In this document: one piece after another, positions 26,214 to 59,870 of the stretch
Layout: every line of letters starts with the position of its first letter
Numbering within the stretch: the first letter of the stretch is position 1
DNA from: Methanobacteriota archaeon
Lineage (GTDB): Archaea > Thermoplasmatota > E2 > DHVEG-1
Assembly (NCBI GenBank): GCA_903877165.1
Contig: CAIRCU010000044.1
Location: 1-64,000 of the forward strand
Direction of reading: 5' to 3'
DNA: 64,000 nucleotides
Translations under genes and position numbers: made by a program
The notes under the pieces: model-generated
Databases searched by the model: none
Seen by the model: only the letters and a program-made list of their open reading frames with translations
What the model was told of the DNA's origin: nothing

Positions 26214-27098
26214 ATGTCTAGCAAGGCGCTTTTGTCCGGGCTGCTGCTCCTCGTCGCCGTCATCTGGGGCGGCTCGTTCATCGTCGTGAAAGAAGCGACC
26301 GCGGAGATGGATCCCCTTGTCCTGGGCGCCGTTCGGTTCCTCGTCGCCACCCCCCTCATGGTCATCCTGCTTATTGTGATGAAGGCGAACCCGCGAGTAC
26401 CGCGGAAAGAATGGCCGTCGCTGATTGTCCTGGGGCTTACCGGCGTCACCCTCCTCTACGTACTGCAATATATCGGGATTGCGTACACGAATGCGTCGAC
26501 GTCCTCCGTGCTGACCGACATGGACGTCTTATTCATCGTCCTGCTGTCCTTTCTCCTCCTGCATGAGCCTGTGACGCGCCTGCGGATCCTTGGCATCGGT
26601 CTGTCGTTCATCGGGGTGATCGTCGTCGTGTTCTCCAACATCGACGTTGCATCGATGACGGTCTCCACCCAGTTCATCCTCGGCTCTGTCCTCGTCGTCT
26701 CCTCCTCGCTGTGTTGGGGCGTGTTTTCCATCGTGGGTAAACGCCTCCTGCAGACGTATAACGAGATCACCATCATGACCTATGCCTTCGCTCTGGGCAC
26801 GCTCTTCTACCTCCCTATTGTGGGCGGCAGTCTCGTCTCCTCGCTACAGCGGACTTCGCTGTTCGGCTGGGGAGCGATCCTGTACCTCGCAGTCGTCAGC
26901 ACCATCATCGCGTACCTCGGGTGGTACTACGCGTTGAAACGCGTGGATGCCAGCCAGGCGGCCGTGTACCTCAACTTCATCCCGCTCTCCACGATCCTGA
27001 TGGCGATCCTCCTAGGAGAACACATGACGGTCGCCTTTTTCGTCGGCGCAGGCTTAATAATCTATGGCGTATATTTGACGCAAGATAGGAAAAAATAA
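26214..27098 (+). CDS. EamA/DMT-family transporter with altered 3' end
   Basis: 294 residues, ten membrane segments in two EamA repeats (about 5-135 and 150-285), with WGGSFIVVKEA in the first and WGVFSIVGKRLL in the second. The family exports or imports small metabolites such as amino acids; the substrate cannot be read from sequence. The last codons (TAT TTG ACG CAA GAT AGG AAA AAA) are AT-rich and differ from the displaced native ending found at 28548-28568 (TAC CTC ACG CAG CGA CAC stop). The gene end was therefore replaced by the inserted unit that follows, leaving the protein nearly unchanged. It would originally have been followed directly by NMD3. Confidence 0.88.
   Translation: MSSKALLSGLLLLVAVIWGGSFIVVKEATAEMDPLVLGAVRFLVATPLMVILLIVMKANPRVPRKEWPSLIVLGLTGVTLLYVLQYIGIAYTNASTSSVLTDMDVLFIVLLSFLLLHEPVTRLRILGIGLSFIGVIVVVFSNIDVASMTVSTQFILGSVLVVSSSLCWGVFSIVGKRLLQTYNEITIMTYAFALGTLFYLPIVGGSLVSSLQRTSLFGWGAILYLAVVSTIIAYLGWYYALKRVDASQAAVYLNFIPLSTILMAILLGEHMTVAFFVGAGLIIYGVYLTQDRKK
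27052..27073 (+). repeat. Left direct repeat of inserted unit (attL-like)
   Basis: 22 bp identical to 28528-28549. A further ACGCA block matches at the same offset of 1,476 bp (27078 and 28554). The repeat lies inside the last codons of the EamA gene. Confidence 0.8.
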
Positions 27099-27099
27099 A

Positions 27100-28374
27100 T
27101 TGGAATTAAGAATGAAGAAAGTATTTATTGACGCAGAATTTGTTTGTGATAGAAGAAAATTAGATATGACTCGAATTTCAAAATATTTACTTAGAAATGG
27201 TTATGAGATTGTTGATAGTCCTAAAAAAGCAGATGTTATTTTAATTAGTACTTGTGGTTTTGGAAATTCTCTTGCAGACACATCCTTTAAAAAGATAAAG
27301 GAATTAAAAAAATATGATGGGGAGGTTATAGTAACAGGTTGTGTACCAGACACGGATAAAAAAAGATTTGACTATTTTTTCAATGGCCGGTCTTTTAGTA
27401 CAAAACATATTGATGAAATTGAAACTTATTTCCCTGGAAATAAAGTCAGTTTTTCTGAAATTGAGGATGGTAATTCTCTTTGGATTAATTTAAACAGAGA
27501 TAAAATCAGTGATACTTTTCGACTATTATTTTTAAAATTTAATTTAATAAAAAAAGCGTATGTAGGTTTTTTCGATCAGATGTTTAGAAATAACATTGGA
27601 GAAAATCATTTGATTTTACAAACTTTTTATGGATTGAATCTCCCTATAGATGATCTCTATGATATTAGAATTGCATCTGGTTGCTGGCAGAATTGTTCCT
27701 ATTGTGCAATTAAAAAGGGCGTGGGCGGATTTAAAAGCAAACCTCTAGATATTTGTTTAAATGAATTTAAAAATGGTTTAGAAAAAGGGTATTCAAATTT
27801 TTTTCTTACAGCCGAAGATACGGGATGTTACGGGTTAGATATCAATAGCAATTTTCCCGATTTGCTTGATAAGATTATGAACATTGATGGAGAGTATAGG
27901 ATTAATATTTATGCGTTAAATCCTAGGTGGGTTGTAAAATATATTGATGAACTTGAAGAGATTGTAAAAAAAGGAAAAATTAAGGCTATATTAATTCCTA
28001 TTCAATCAGGGGATAATAGAATCCTTCAGCATATGAATCGGTATTCAGATGTTGAAAAAATAAAATCTGCTTTTATGAGATTAAAAAAAGCAAATTCGGA
28101 TCTTACTCTTGCTACACATTGTATTGTAGGTTTTCCTTCTGAAACGGATCAGGAATTCAAAGAAACTTTGGATTTTATCAAAGCAGCAAATCTTGATTTA
28201 GGTATAATCATGTCAATGTCTATTAAAGCCGATACTGAAGCAGAAAGTATTGAACCAAAAGTATCAAGAAAAGAAATATCCAAACGATTGAGGTCTGCTC
28301 AGAAATATCTAAGAAACTTAGGATATATGACTTTCAAAGTAAAAGGTACTCTTTATTATAGAAAAAAGGAATAG
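27100..28374 (+). CDS. AT-rich radical SAM protein, methylthiotransferase-like
   Basis: 424 residues from TTG 27100, or 420 from ATG 27112; the paralogue at 58271 also keeps codons ahead of the inner ATG, which favours the longer form. An N-terminal domain keeps three cysteines (Cys16, Cys52, Cys81) in the places where MiaB/MtaB-type enzymes hold an auxiliary [4Fe-4S] cluster. The radical SAM motif is CWQNCSYC (Cys195, Cys199, Cys202). HCIVGFPSETDQEF near residue 350 is the usual late motif. A C-terminal TRAM domain is lacking, and residues about 95-190 form an insertion. The substrate may not be tRNA. Base composition is far more AT-rich than the neighbours, a sign of transfer. Confidence 0.85.
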   Translation: MELRMKKVFIDAEFVCDRRKLDMTRISKYLLRNGYEIVDSPKKADVILISTCGFGNSLADTSFKKIKELKKYDGEVIVTGCVPDTDKKRFDYFFNGRSFSTKHIDEIETYFPGNKVSFSEIEDGNSLWINLNRDKISDTFRLLFLKFNLIKKAYVGFFDQMFRNNIGENHLILQTFYGLNLPIDDLYDIRIASGCWQNCSYCAIKKGVGGFKSKPLDICLNEFKNGLEKGYSNFFLTAEDTGCYGLDINSNFPDLLDKIMNIDGEYRINIYALNPRWVVKYIDELEEIVKKGKIKAILIPIQSGDNRILQHMNRYSDVEKIKSAFMRLKKANSDLTLATHCIVGFPSETDQEFKETLDFIKAANLDLGIIMSMSIKADTEAESIEPKVSRKEISKRLRSAQKYLRNLGYMTFKVKGTLYYRKKE

Positions 28375-28527
28375 ATTGATACATTGTAATTCTCTCAGGC
28401 TTGAATGCTAGGGAGTATGTCTGGCACCCCGCCGCTAGCCCTATAATAACAGCAGGTCGTAGTATCATATAAAAGAATCAAGCTCCTCATTATTTTTATT
28501 TTAATCTAATGAATAAAATTAACACAA
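28375..28527. other. Right non-coding flank of the inserted unit
   Basis: Mostly AT-rich with one GC-rich island near 28406-28465. No gene recognised; the island was examined as a tRNA and does not fold as one. Confidence 0.4.
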
Positions 28528-28568
28528 GCTTAATAATCTATGGCGTATACCTCACGCAGCGACACTAA
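28528..28568 (+). pseudogene. Right direct repeat and displaced native 3' end of the EamA gene
   Basis: 28528-28549 repeats 27052-27073. The frame then continues as the GC-rich codons TAC CTC ACG CAG CGA CAC and stops at 28566-28568, about 18 nt before the NMD3 start. This is the original tail of the transporter, cut off by the insertion. Confidence 0.8.
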
Positions 28569-28586: not shown

Positions 28587-29618
28587 ATGTTCTGCGTCGA
28601 ATGCGGCACTGAAGGACCGATATACAAGAACGGCGTCTGCCTGAAGTGTTACCTGAAGGGTACCCGGTTCAGCAAAGGACCCGTGATTCTGGATATCACG
28701 ACGTGTCCTCGTTGTGATGCGTATAAGTTCAAGAGCACCTGGATTCGGGAGTCTTTTCATGAGGCCCTTCAACGCCATCTGAAGACCTCGTTCACCGTCG
28801 ACCCGGAGCTTGGGAACCCCCGGTTCCAGGCCGACTGCAAGGAGCAGGACCGGATGCTCTCCTGCCTCATCTCCATCTCTGGTACTGTGGGTGGTCAGGC
28901 CGTCGTCGAACAGCATCCGCTCACCGTTCGACTCAAGAATATCACCTGTGATGTCTGCTCGCGTGAGGCGGGCGGCTACTACGAGGCGATTCTGCAGATC
29001 CGCGCGGACCAACGCATCTTCACCCCAGAAGAGCTCGAAGCCCTCGAAACGAAGGTCGATACCCTCGTCAAGAACGCGCAGAAGGACAAACGCAGCGTGT
29101 ACATCACCGATTACGAGATCAAGCGCGAAGGCCTTGATTTCTTCCTCAGCGATAAGGGCGTTGCCCAGACGATCGCCAGGCGGCTCCAGGAGCAGTACGG
29201 CGGGGAGTTCAAACAGTCCGCCTCGAACGTCGGCATGAAGGACAGCCGGCAGCTCTACCGCGTCACCTATCTGGTGCGTCTTCCCCGGTATCAGCCTGGT
29301 GACTTCCTCCTGTATCAGCGTACTCCGATGCGCGTCCGCAGCATTCGCGGGAATAAAGCGCACTTGCAGAGTCTTGCCACATGGGAGGATTCCACGGTCG
29401 ATGCGAAATCCTTGCAGCAGGCGTCGCCGATTTCTGATTCCGTGAGGCGAAAGGAAATGATCGTGGTCAGCCAGACCTCCTCCGAGGTTCAGCTCATGGA
29501 CCCGGATTCGTATAGGATTATGACGATTCCCAAGCCCAAGAAACATACGTTTTCTAAAGAGAAAACCACGGTCGTACGCATCAACGACCTTGATTATCTT
29601 CTTCCCGAGAAAGACTAG
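28587..29618 (+). CDS. nmd3: NMD3-family ribosome-associated protein
   Basis: 343 residues from ATG 28587 (MFCVECG, the usual NMD3 start); TTG 28578 would add three residues. NMD3 in eukaryotes is the 60S export adaptor; archaeal members are thought to act in large-subunit biogenesis. Zinc-binding CxxC pairs are visible at the N-terminus (CVEC, CLKC), at CPRC and at CDVC (about residue 130), followed by the two beta-barrel-like domains of the family. It stops 1 nt before the TruA start region and was originally transcribed with the EamA gene. Confidence 0.93.
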   Translation: MFCVECGTEGPIYKNGVCLKCYLKGTRFSKGPVILDITTCPRCDAYKFKSTWIRESFHEALQRHLKTSFTVDPELGNPRFQADCKEQDRMLSCLISISGTVGGQAVVEQHPLTVRLKNITCDVCSREAGGYYEAILQIRADQRIFTPEELEALETKVDTLVKNAQKDKRSVYITDYEIKREGLDFFLSDKGVAQTIARRLQEQYGGEFKQSASNVGMKDSRQLYRVTYLVRLPRYQPGDFLLYQRTPMRVRSIRGNKAHLQSLATWEDSTVDAKSLQQASPISDSVRRKEMIVVSQTSSEVQLMDPDSYRIMTIPKPKKHTFSKEKTTVVRINDLDYLLPEKD

Positions 29619-39070: not shown

Positions 39071-42000
39071 ATGCAGACTTACAAAATAGCTAGTATTATT
39101 TTCGCAGTGCTGCTGCTTCCAATCATCATGCCCTGTACTCACGATGGATCGATGACAGAGGCAATGAGTCGTGTCTCCCGGAGCACCACCGAACCCGTCT
39201 CCGAGGTAGGCGCACGCGTTGAAGGACTTCATGACACAGTATTGACTAATCGGGAGGTTGGTCCGTTTCCAGCCGGTGGTGGACCCTCGTTCGGCGATAC
39301 CACACGTCCTACATGCACGATTGCGTTCGACAACCCTGATCGGTACAACATCAGCGGGGCTACGATTAGAATCTTCGCGAATTTCACGGAAAACGGCTCC
39401 GGCATCGACCCGGCCACGGTGAGGATCAATATCACCGTCGCCGGTAATCTCTCCATTGAGAATTACAGCATGGATAGCCTGAACAACACGCGGTGGTACT
39501 ATGATTGGGCGGTTCCAGGCGTTGACGGACCGGTGAAGGTCAGCATCTTCGCAGCCGACAATGCCTCGAACCTGCTGGATCCCTACCCAACCTTTAACAC
39601 CTCCAGGTTCATCGATACCACCCTTCCAAGCGCCACCATCACCTATAACCAATCCGCCGCATACCTTACCCAAGGCACCCTCCTCAAAATATTCGTCAAC
39701 TTCACCGATGCTTCCTCCGGCATCATACCGAACAGCGCCAAAATCAACATCAGCGCGGGCGGCAGCCAACTTGTCACCGATAACTCCTTGATAGAGACGA
39801 ACGAAACGCATTGGTACTTTGACTGGGTTATTCCTACGGGCCATGACGGCGTGATTAACGTTAGTGTCTACGCCATGGACCACGCTGGCCATCAACTCGA
39901 CCCCGAACAATCCACGAACGTATCGAAAAGCATTGACAACACCGCGCCTTCCTGCACCATCGCCTACAACACCACTGCGACCTACCTCAACGCAGAAACC
40001 ACACTCTGCATCTATGCGAACTTCACGGAAAACGGCTCCGGCATCGACCCTGCCTCCGTCCATATAAACATCACGACTACCGGTCATGGCGTCACCGGCA
40101 ACTACAGCATGCAAAGTACCAACAACACCCACTGGTACTACAACTGGACGGTGCCTGCTGGCAACGATGGGCCGGTCACCATCAAGGTTTACGCGAAGGA
40201 TAACGTCAACCATCTCCTCGCACAGTACCCGACCACCAACCTCTCCAAGATTATCGACAACACCGCACCCACCTGCACCATCGGCTACAACATCACCAGG
40301 CACGCACTTAAAGAAGGAGACGCAGTCAAGATCTATGCGAATTTCACCGACGCGGGTGCAGGCATAGACCCAGCGAGCATTCTCATCAACATCTCCACGG
40401 TCGGCCTCGGCGGTCTCCTCAGCACCGCCATGCAGCAAATCAACATAACACACTGGTATTACAACTGGACCATCCCCGCTGGCAACGACGGTCCAATGAC
40501 CGTCAAGGTCTACGCTAAAGACAACCTCGGCCAGCCCCTCACCGAATACCCCGCCATCAACGACTCCAAGATCATCGACAACACCCCACCATCCTGTATC
40601 ATCGACTACAACCGCACCACCACCTACCTCAAAGTCGGACAAAAACTCAAAATCTACACGAACTTCACAGACACCAGCTCCGGCATCGACCCCGCCACCA
40701 TCCACATAAACATCACGACCGCCAGCCATGGCGTCACCGGCAACTACAGCATGCAAAGTACCAACAACACCCACTGGTACTACAACTGGACGGTGCCTGC
40801 AGGCAACGACGGACCGGTCACCATCAACGTCTACGCCCATGACAACGCCACCAACCCCATGAGCCCCTACCCCACCACCAACACCAGCAAACACATCGAC
40901 AACACCCCGCCGTCTCTAACTATCGGCTTCGATACCCCCAACCCATACCTCACCGACGACGACAGCATAACCATCTACGCCAACTTCACAGAAAACGGCT
41001 CCGGCATCAACCCAGACTCCGTCACCATCACCATCCACACCACCGGCACACCAGTCTTTGACATCCCCATGACCAAAACTGACCTTACCCACTATACCTA
41101 CACTTGGGATGTCCCCAGCGCAAGCGACGGCTCTACCAATATCACCATCAAAGCCGCGGACAACGCCACCAACCCTATCGCCGGTGCCAACTTCACCACC
41201 GCGAAAACCATCGACAACACCCCACCATCCTGCATCATCGGTTTCAACCGCACCGCCACCTACCTCAACGCAGAAACCAAACTCCGCGTCTATGCGAACT
41301 TCACGGAAAACGGCTCCGGCATCGATTCCGCAACCGTCCACATAGACATCACGACCGCCAGCCATGGCGTCACCGGCAACCACAGCATGCAAAGTACCAA
41401 CAACACCCACTGGTACTACAACTGGACGGTGCCTGCAGGCAACGACGGGCATGTCAACATCAGCGTCTACGCAAAGGATAACGTCAACCATCTCCTCACG
41501 CAGTACCCGACCACCAACGTCTCCAAGATCATCGACAACAACGCACCCACCTGCACCATCGCCTTCAACACCACACAAACCACGCTTACCAGCGGCAACA
41601 AACTCCGCATCTACGCCAACTTCACAGAAAACGACTCCGGCATCAACCCCGGCTCCATCAAGATAAGCATCACTACCGTCGGCAATGGCGACACTGCAAA
41701 CACATCTATGGTGAGGACTAACATTACACACTGGTACTATAATTGGACCGTACCCTCAGGAACAGACGACAACGGCGTCGCGACCATCCACATCTACGCC
41801 ACAGATAATGCGACTAACTTCTTAGACCCCTGGCCGACGAACAACACCGCGAAAACCATCGCAAATACCGGGGGAACCGGTGGAGGCACAGGTGGCGGTT
41901 CAGACGGTGGAAGCAATACCCCGCCGATTGCGGACGCTGGCGGGCCGTACACCGGCTCGGACGGCTATCCTGTCACCCTGGATGCTTCCAAGAGCCGGAG

Positions 42001-57883: not shown

Positions 57884-58270
57884 AGTCCACGTCCTTTTTT
57901 CCTCCCTTTTTTTCTACATTTCAATGGTATCCTAGACGAACTGAAAATATGGACTTTTCACAAACGCTAAAAAGATGATTAGACCTTCGGGATATTTACT
58001 CGCAATTGTATGATAGATTAGAACGAGAATGTACTAGTAATAAATTCATCGTGCCACTTTACGTTGTCACCAAGATATTCATTAGCAAATATTGAAATAT
58101 TGAATTTTCTTTATAAAAATTTGTTCTCTGCCATTGTGTGAAACGAATACCCCGAAACTTTACAATTTTGGTAAAAAGGAGAATCAACCCACATAGCATG
58201 GATATAACAAGATTTTTAAACAAAAATCTCCTATAATTTAATTATAATATTATAGTAAAAAAATAAAAAT
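57884..58270. other. AT-rich spacer before the second radical SAM gene
   Basis: A T-rich tract follows the DUF6015-like stop. The rest is AT-rich, with TATA-like elements just before 58271. No gene recognised and no direct repeat found with the other flank of the radical SAM gene. Confidence 0.5.
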
Positions 58271-59548
58271 ATGCTGGAATTACGAATGAAGAAAGTATTT
58301 ATTACCGCAGGCATAATTTGTGATAAAAGAAAATTAGAACTAAATCGAATTACACAATATTTAATCAGAAATGATTACGAGATTGTAGATAGCCCTAAAA
58401 AAGCAGATGTTATTTTAATTAGTACGTGTGGCGTCGGGAATTCTTCTACAAATATATCTTTTAACAAGATCAAAGAATTCAGTAGATTTAATGGGAAGGT
58501 TATCGTAACTGGTTGCCTACCAGATACCGATAAAAAAAAATTTGACGAGTTTTTTAAGGGCAAGTCTTTTAGTACAAAACATCTTGATGAAGTTGAACTG
58601 TATTTCCCTAGAACAAAAGTTAGTTTTTCTGAAATTGAAGATTGTAATTATCTTTGGATTAATGAAAACAGAGATACAATCAATGATGTCGTTAAATTAT
58701 TATGTCTAAAATTTGATTTGATAAAAAGATTTTATGTAAGTTTTTTCAATAATTTGTCTAGATTTTTAATGGGAGAAAATCATTGGATGTTACAGGCTTT
58801 CTATGCTTTGAATCTCCCTCTTGATAATCAGTACTTTATTAGAATTGCATCTGGTTGTTGGGGAAATTGTTCTTATTGCGCAACTAGAAAAGCAGTGGGA
58901 GACTATACAAGTAAACCTCTCAACATCTGTGTAAATGAATTTAAAAACGGCTTAGAAAAGGGATATTCACATTTTTTTCTTACCGCTGAAGACACAGGAG
59001 GGTACGGGTTAGATAGCAATAGCAATTTACCCGAATTGCTTGACACGATGACAAACATCGATGGAGAGTATTGGATTAATATTTATACGTTAAACCCTCA
59101 GTGGGCCGTAAAATATATTGATGAACTTGAAGAGATCGTAAAAAAAGGAAAAATTAAGGCAATATGCATTCCTATTCAATCAGGAAATCATAGGATTCTT
59201 CAACAGATGAATCGGTATTCAGATGTCGAAAAAATAAAATCTGCTTTAATTAGATTAAAAAAGGCAAATCCGAATCTTTCTGTTGCTACACACTGCATTA
59301 TTGGTTTCCCTTCTGAAACCGACCAGGAATTCAAAGAGACATTGGATTTTATTACATCAACAGATCTTGATCTAGGCCTCATGCTATCAATATCTATCAA
59401 AGCCGATACTGAAGCAGAAAATTTTGAGCCCAAAGTATCAAGAAAAGAGATATCCAAAAGATTGAGGTATACTCAGAAATATCTAAGAAATTCAGGATAT
59501 AAAACGTTCAAAATAAAAGACGATATTATTTTTAGGAAAAACCGATAA
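58271..59548 (+). CDS. AT-rich radical SAM protein, paralogue of 27100
   Basis: 425 residues. It aligns with the protein at 27100 from end to end: N-terminal Cys17/Cys53/Cys82, radical SAM motif CWGNCSYC (Cys196/Cys200/Cys203), HCIIGFPSETDQEF near residue 350 and the same C-terminus without a TRAM domain. Divergence is spread along the whole length, including silent sites, so the copies are not a recent duplication. AT content is far above that of the neighbours. It stands alone between divergent promoters with no partner gene. A methylthiotransferase-like reaction is the best guess. Confidence 0.85.
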   Translation: MLELRMKKVFITAGIICDKRKLELNRITQYLIRNDYEIVDSPKKADVILISTCGVGNSSTNISFNKIKEFSRFNGKVIVTGCLPDTDKKKFDEFFKGKSFSTKHLDEVELYFPRTKVSFSEIEDCNYLWINENRDTINDVVKLLCLKFDLIKRFYVSFFNNLSRFLMGENHWMLQAFYALNLPLDNQYFIRIASGCWGNCSYCATRKAVGDYTSKPLNICVNEFKNGLEKGYSHFFLTAEDTGGYGLDSNSNLPELLDTMTNIDGEYWINIYTLNPQWAVKYIDELEEIVKKGKIKAICIPIQSGNHRILQQMNRYSDVEKIKSALIRLKKANPNLSVATHCIIGFPSETDQEFKETLDFITSTDLDLGLMLSISIKADTEAENFEPKVSRKEISKRLRYTQKYLRNSGYKTFKIKDDIIFRKNR

Positions 59549-59802
59549 GATGACAAAATATTTTGCCCTTGCTGACATCAGATTTTACCATTTATAATGA
59601 TTACAAAATGAATTTACCAGTAAATAGGTGTTCAAATCTGTTTAATTAAAAAAATCTTAATAAAAGAGAGTTTAAGGTTTATCGATTAAATTAATTGAAA
59701 GAAAAAAGATATTAGAAGAGACATACCCACTCGTCCTACTTTTATATCAATTCAATATTCTACTCTTATTAACTCTTCTATAGGAAGGACTCCTAGAAAG
59801 AA
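59549..59802. other. AT-rich right flank of the radical SAM gene
   Basis: No gene recognised; AT-rich DNA similar in composition to the radical SAM gene, ending where the GC-rich metK region begins. Confidence 0.45.
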
Positions 59803-59812
59803 CGTTTATAAG
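59803..59812 (+). promoter_or_regulatory. TATA box of metK
   Basis: CGTTTATAAG about 65 nt before ATG 59871, giving a leader of about 35 nt that contains the ribosome binding site. Confidence 0.6.
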
Positions 59813-59848
59813 GGATGGAACATTGTCCTAGCCTCAACCATACCCCCA

Positions 59849-59870
59849 AGGAGGAGGTACGAGAACTCCT
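59849..59870 (+). promoter_or_regulatory. metK ribosome binding site in a possible small hairpin
   Basis: AGGAG (59852-59856) can pair with CTCCT (59866-59870), which directly precedes the start codon, with a 9-nt loop. The pairing would hide the ribosome binding site. Only five pairs, so this may be chance. Confidence 0.3.

Follow-up and report, generated by a model that had tools for sequence, protein, structure and literature searches.

A foreign DNA segment of ~1.45 kb, whose only gene encodes a radical SAM/UPF0004 protein, has been inserted between the genes for an EamA transporter and for NMD3 in the window (the whole 64,000-nt stretch of archaeal DNA analysed here), duplicating a 22-bp core and replacing the 3′ end of the EamA gene. 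We think that this probably happened by site-specific integration at the 3′ end of a protein gene, with the EamA 3′ end acting as a recurrent attachment site and the recombinase provided in trans or since lost.

Architecture of the EamA–NMD3 locus

An earlier note had described a direct repeat bracketing a single AT-rich radical SAM gene at this locus, and our analysis confirmed the observation. The 22-bp repeat (GCTTAATAATCTATGGCGTATA) is perfect, its copies at 27052-27073 and 28528-28549 are spaced by 1476 bp, and an imperfect extension brings it to 34 nt with 88% identity (27049-27082 and 28525-28558). The longest word common to the EamA side and to the side that follows the radical SAM gene and leads into NMD3 is 22 nt, as compared with at most 13 nt in 300 dinucleotide shuffles, and no third copy of the core was found genome-wide in the source genome at up to 3 mismatches. 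GC content is ~57-59% left of the insert, 28-31% between the repeats and ~57% again to the right, consistent with the contrast pointed out before between AT-rich codons inside the repeats and GC-rich codons outside. The features of the locus, all on the forward strand, are as follows.

26214-27098, +, EamA transporter gene (Pfam EamA, 1.3e-51); orthologs end in GLIIYGVYLTQ(R/K)
27052-27073, +, left core copy, attL-like, also a putative promoter copy; perfect repeat, single-copy in empty sites
27074-27098, +, replacement EamA 3′ end from the insert, reading YLTQDRKK and a stop codon; its AT-rich YLTQ codons are synonymous with the native ones
27112-28374, +, cargo gene for a methylthiotransferase-like radical SAM protein without TRAM (Pfam PF04055 and PF00919)
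28390-28418, +, segment after the cargo stop codon, conserved with locus L034 in the alignment (TTCTCTCAGG.TTGAAT..)
28528-28549, +, right core copy, attR-like, keeping the putative NMD3 TATA box TTAATAATC; perfect repeat
28550-28568, +, displaced native EamA 3′ end CCTCACGCAGCGACACTAA, matching the empty sites of relatives
28587-29618, +, NMD3 gene, the ancestral EamA neighbour (Pfam PF04981, 2.8e-47), adjoining EamA in 18 relatives

The source assembly (G000) consists of 57 contigs, and the insert might have been joined to its surroundings artificially through the 22-bp word. We consider this extremely unlikely, given that the contig (83,880 bp) extends far beyond both sides of the insert, that the same architecture is seen in a single-contig genome (G026) and in G068, and that the synonymous EamA codons would not be accounted for by a chimera.

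The empty site proposed earlier as a check on insertion was found in relatives from other genera, most of them represented by fragmented, incomplete assemblies. Within the family, NMD3 follows EamA directly in 17 other genomes, typically 7-15 bp past the stop codon, with one copy of the core, and an eighteenth such site is present in a genome of another family (G038). Because EamA and NMD3 are adjacent in all 18, with one core and no radical SAM gene between them, the genome comparison shows that the radical SAM segment is an insertion.

The insertion also exchanged the end of the target gene. The EamA reading frame, which stops at 27098, is native up to the end of the core (27073), and its final 25 nt come from the insert. 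Codons before the core are native and GC-rich; those after it are AT-rich (TAT TTG ACG CAA ...). The native end, TAC CTC ACG CAG CGA CAC TAA, stands orphaned ahead of NMD3, as had been noticed before; its stop codon is at 28566-28568 and the NMD3 ATG at 28587. Both ends encode YLTQ, with 4 of 12 nt different, which bears out the proposal that a short shared core within a protein gene's 3′ end received the DNA together with a replacement end. The same difference argues against a transposon-type origin, in which a transposase or casposase would cut with a stagger of ~22-34 bp and the repeat would be a target-site duplication. The length of the repeat is within the possible range, and duplications are also left by casposons, which insert at the 3′ ends of archaeal genes (PMC6563490); a target-site duplication, however, would begin as two identical copies, and a fresh one would not carry four synonymous changes in the 12 nt directly past the perfect 22. 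These changes fit an att site that carries a gene-end mimic of its own. Unlike a casposon or transposon, the insert has no terminal inverted repeats and encodes neither a transposase nor Cas1, and we regard such an origin as rather improbable.

Identity and origin of the cargo gene

The cargo protein resembles the methylthiotransferases MiaB, RimO and MtaB in having UPF0004 and radical SAM domains, but it has no TRAM domain in the Pfam search and stays under all NCBIfam cut-offs (218.7 bits with TIGR00089, for which the cut-off is 251). A CxxxCxxC motif is present in its sequence, along with three cysteines in the N-terminal part, and the reading frame, with its ATG at 27112, has an alternative TTG start at 27100. 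The closest relative, at locus L034 in another genus, is 83% identical at the amino acid level, whereas the EamA and NMD3 proteins of the same genome pair are 54% and 51% identical (the L034 genome is taken to be G065, on the basis of an identical EamA match). Judged from this disparity, the radical SAM gene is foreign and was acquired horizontally. The L034 copy sits at a different locus, after a tRNA-Phe gene, and the EamA–NMD3 site of that genome is empty. The segment 28390-28418 past the cargo stop codon is also conserved at L034 and, on the evidence of the alignment, moved together with the gene. Local duplication of the paralog at 58286 was rejected as the source of the insert, since the insert is 87.5% identical to L034 at the nucleotide level as opposed to 82.3% to the paralog. 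The tRNA-Phe gene beside the L034 copy was rejected as an att site, there being no duplicated tRNA end. On phages and plasmids we found just distant MiaB-like proteins, at less than 30% among the matches listed.

The cargo family is multi-copy and patchily distributed across the archaeal family. TRAM-less methylthiotransferase-like radical SAM genes, whose products stay under every NCBIfam cut-off, lie at 27112-28374 and 58286-59548 of the window and in G009 (contig 79), G027, G034 and G038; some genomes have several divergent copies, and contig 79 of G009 holds a cluster of copies and fragments. These genes are often found near glycosyltransferase-, methyltransferase- or ligase-like genes. 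The paralog in the window occupies an AT-rich island of its own (~2 kb, 57884-59870), which has no direct repeats; its neighbours are a small gene on one side and, on the other, a gene similar to that for archaeal S-adenosylmethionine synthetase.

The EamA core as a reused, promoter-like site

The radical SAM gene had been thought to define the mobile unit, and this part of the earlier account was not supported. When 25 radical SAM loci of the family were scanned for flanking repeats, the present one alone stood out (45 bits against 22.6 expected), and none of the 24 other members was bracketed by repeats of this kind; moreover, the same core holds other cargo in other genera. These comparisons make the radical SAM gene a passenger; what is used repeatedly is the site.

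Other cargo is clearly present at this core in two or more further lineages. In G026, 3.2 kb encoding a secreted protein and an HNH protein fill the EamA–NMD3 gap; EamA terminates within the core, its end unrestored, and a complete core with an EamA end precedes NMD3. In G068 the gap holds a gene for an fn3/PKD surface protein, the EamA end has been replaced (VYITQE) and an orphan end lies ahead of NMD3; G067 has its left end in common with G068. Two more lineages make weaker cases. G013 has a type IIG restriction enzyme gene before NMD3, with the EamA end eroded and the locus split across two contigs. G004, compared with its sibling G025 (95-96% identical), has a right breakpoint between CAATC and TTAATAAT; the core is retained there, but most of EamA is gone and with it the left junction, so that G004 shares the right-hand breakpoint only. 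The right-hand breakpoints each fall within a few bases of the motif YTTAWAAT. Orphan cores ahead of NMD3 in G015, G032, G005, G062, G003 and G022 look like relicts and are too eroded to count.

Two other loci were left out of this count. In G037 (family f3; L175, 992-2637) a single gene for an FG-GAP repeat protein fills the EamA–NMD3 gap, perhaps as an old insertion, with no visible core repeat. Contig 71 of G066 (L172, 1-60) has its first bases precisely at the core, ahead of another NMD3 gene that is ~82% identical to the first; it was rejected as an occupied site because it belongs to a second strain or species, roughly 79-86% identical.

The variety of cargo bears on whether homologous or homology-assisted exchange could have delivered the insert, that is, from a relative that already had an EamA′–radical SAM–NMD3′ arrangement, by crossovers in conserved sequence and without a recombinase acting in the source genome. 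The core is near-identical between genera and could seed recombination, and the gene derives from a lower-GC relative. However, 22 bp of homology is very short, the flanking genes share only ~55% protein identity, no donor with the required arrangement was found, and such an exchange explains neither the first insertion nor the other cargos at the core. We therefore hold it to be unlikely.

The core itself is conserved beyond what its coding role would predict. In 24 EamA orthologs, synonymous conservation peaks at the core (0.70 observed against 0.35 expected for GLIIY), which ranks first among 294 windows. The conserved codons inside the EamA coding end (27040-27085 of the window, aligned with 23 orthologs) are TTA ATA ATC TAT; the Ile codon ATA is common to 92% of ortholog pairs, although in sampled host genes ATA accounts for 6 of 159 codons for Ile and TTA for 3 of 170 codons for Leu. 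As far as codon conservation can tell, the core is under selection at the DNA level. The element TTAATAATC lies ~57 nt upstream of the NMD3 start codon, and TATA-like boxes similar to it are found ahead of other host genes, so the core probably doubles as the NMD3 promoter. The left core copy lies 60 nt ahead of the radical SAM ATG, and the cargo gene may use this duplicate of the putative NMD3 promoter. The EamA end was perhaps chosen as a target since it is frozen by its second role as a promoter, as tRNA genes are by theirs.

Selection on the core could also make breakpoints seem clustered there, if DNA entered the gap at random and the survivors were those that kept the NMD3 promoter. The position of the core ~57 nt before NMD3 and its DNA-level constraint would agree with such selective retention, as would G004, where the core was kept and most of EamA lost. 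Retention, however, yields neither a perfect duplicate nor a replaced EamA end that still codes, and the breakpoints lie right at the core, not anywhere upstream, which makes this explanation very unlikely.

The missing recombinase and comparison with known systems

We favour site-specific integration, which would have proceeded as follows. Incoming foreign DNA would have carried a short sequence mimicking the 3′ end of EamA, and recombination between it and the chromosome would have taken place within the conserved YTTAWAAT core; the incoming end would have restored the EamA frame, and the native end with the NMD3 promoter would have come to lie beyond the insert. A site-specific recombinase of the tyrosine type is suggested by the attB/attP-type geometry, and it may have acted in trans or been deleted later, leaving a CIME-like remnant. 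An excised circle, if formed, would have the junction TTAACACAA-core-TTTGACGC.

The earlier remark that no integrase is present stood up: a six-frame HMM search, in which three control loci scored strongly, found no integrase or integrase remnant in any of the inserts. Across 52 genomes of the order and IMG/VR we likewise found no integrase-bearing or free element with the core, no core copy outside EamA/NMD3 that would point to a free element, and no parental ICE or IME with the same att specificity; the few core matches in IMG/VR were all in unrelated sequence. Near the other radical SAM genes, integrases occur only at G025 contig 2. Several results thus count against the integration reading, namely the recombinase-free inserts, the lack of a parent element, a core without dyad symmetry (none exceeded shuffles at five sites), the unrestored EamA end of G026 and the lost left junction of G004. 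A decayed remnant (CIME) and mobilisation in trans are both compatible with the data.

The undescribed class suggested earlier is not established by these data. Integration at the 3′ ends of protein genes is published for 14 thaumarchaeal elements with short att sites, one of them with a replaced stop codon (PMC6563490). These integrated elements (iMGE) are multigene units of 2.6-140 kb with a median att length of 17 bp, and their cryptic class is defined by the integrase (PMC6563490). The present insert is like them, for example like NitEve-E2, in its target in the 3′-distal part of a protein gene, its direct-repeat att (22 bp here), the element-derived stop codon that restores the frame and the existence of empty sites; it is unlike them in being 1.45 kb long, with one gene and no integrase. 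Integrase-less remnants retaining attL and attR have been described for bacteria as CIME, or cis-mobilizable elements (PMC5704250). The insert shares with CIME the retained attL and attR, the absence of integration and transfer genes and the restored end of the target gene, but its cargo is one gene and its host an archaeon. With dif modules and other Xer-exploiting elements (PMC6449649, PMC12907356) it has in common the size of a gene, the absence of its own recombinase and the flanking recombination sites. However, a dif site is built of two inverted arms of 11 nt each around a 6-nt spacer (PMC6449649, PMC12907356), and the present core, unlike that of dif modules or IMEX, shows no such dyad. 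In integron gene cassettes an attC site that folds into a conserved hairpin follows the gene; in a comparison by Rfam and folding, the segment behind the cargo gene had no Rfam match and no stable fold (z = 0.80 against shuffles).

The insert is thus known in kind, and what is new is that it lacks an integrase, is reduced to nearly one gene and sits at a promoter-embedded site. It is conceivable, if doubtful, that minimal recombinase-free inserts of one to few genes dock at the promoter-embedded EamA core across several genera of this Thermoplasmatota family, mobilised in trans and with their cargo behind a duplicated NMD3-type promoter. The locus gives a little-studied group of archaea an attachment site that is clean and open to testing: it is known both occupied and empty, it has attL- and attR-like copies, and several cargos unrelated to one another are found in it. 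Should there be no parent with an integrase, gene-sized DNA would be placed at one conserved spot by a trans-acting recombinase, which, if true, bears on how archaea acquire single accessory genes.

A conventional integration site is present in the same genome, on contig 22 of G000 (L160, 6298-7647), where a tRNA-Glu gene is directly followed by a tyrosine recombinase gene. Elsewhere in the window, positions 39380-41860 contain several near-identical direct repeats spaced by ~636-642 bp, which likely belong to a long repetitive surface protein.
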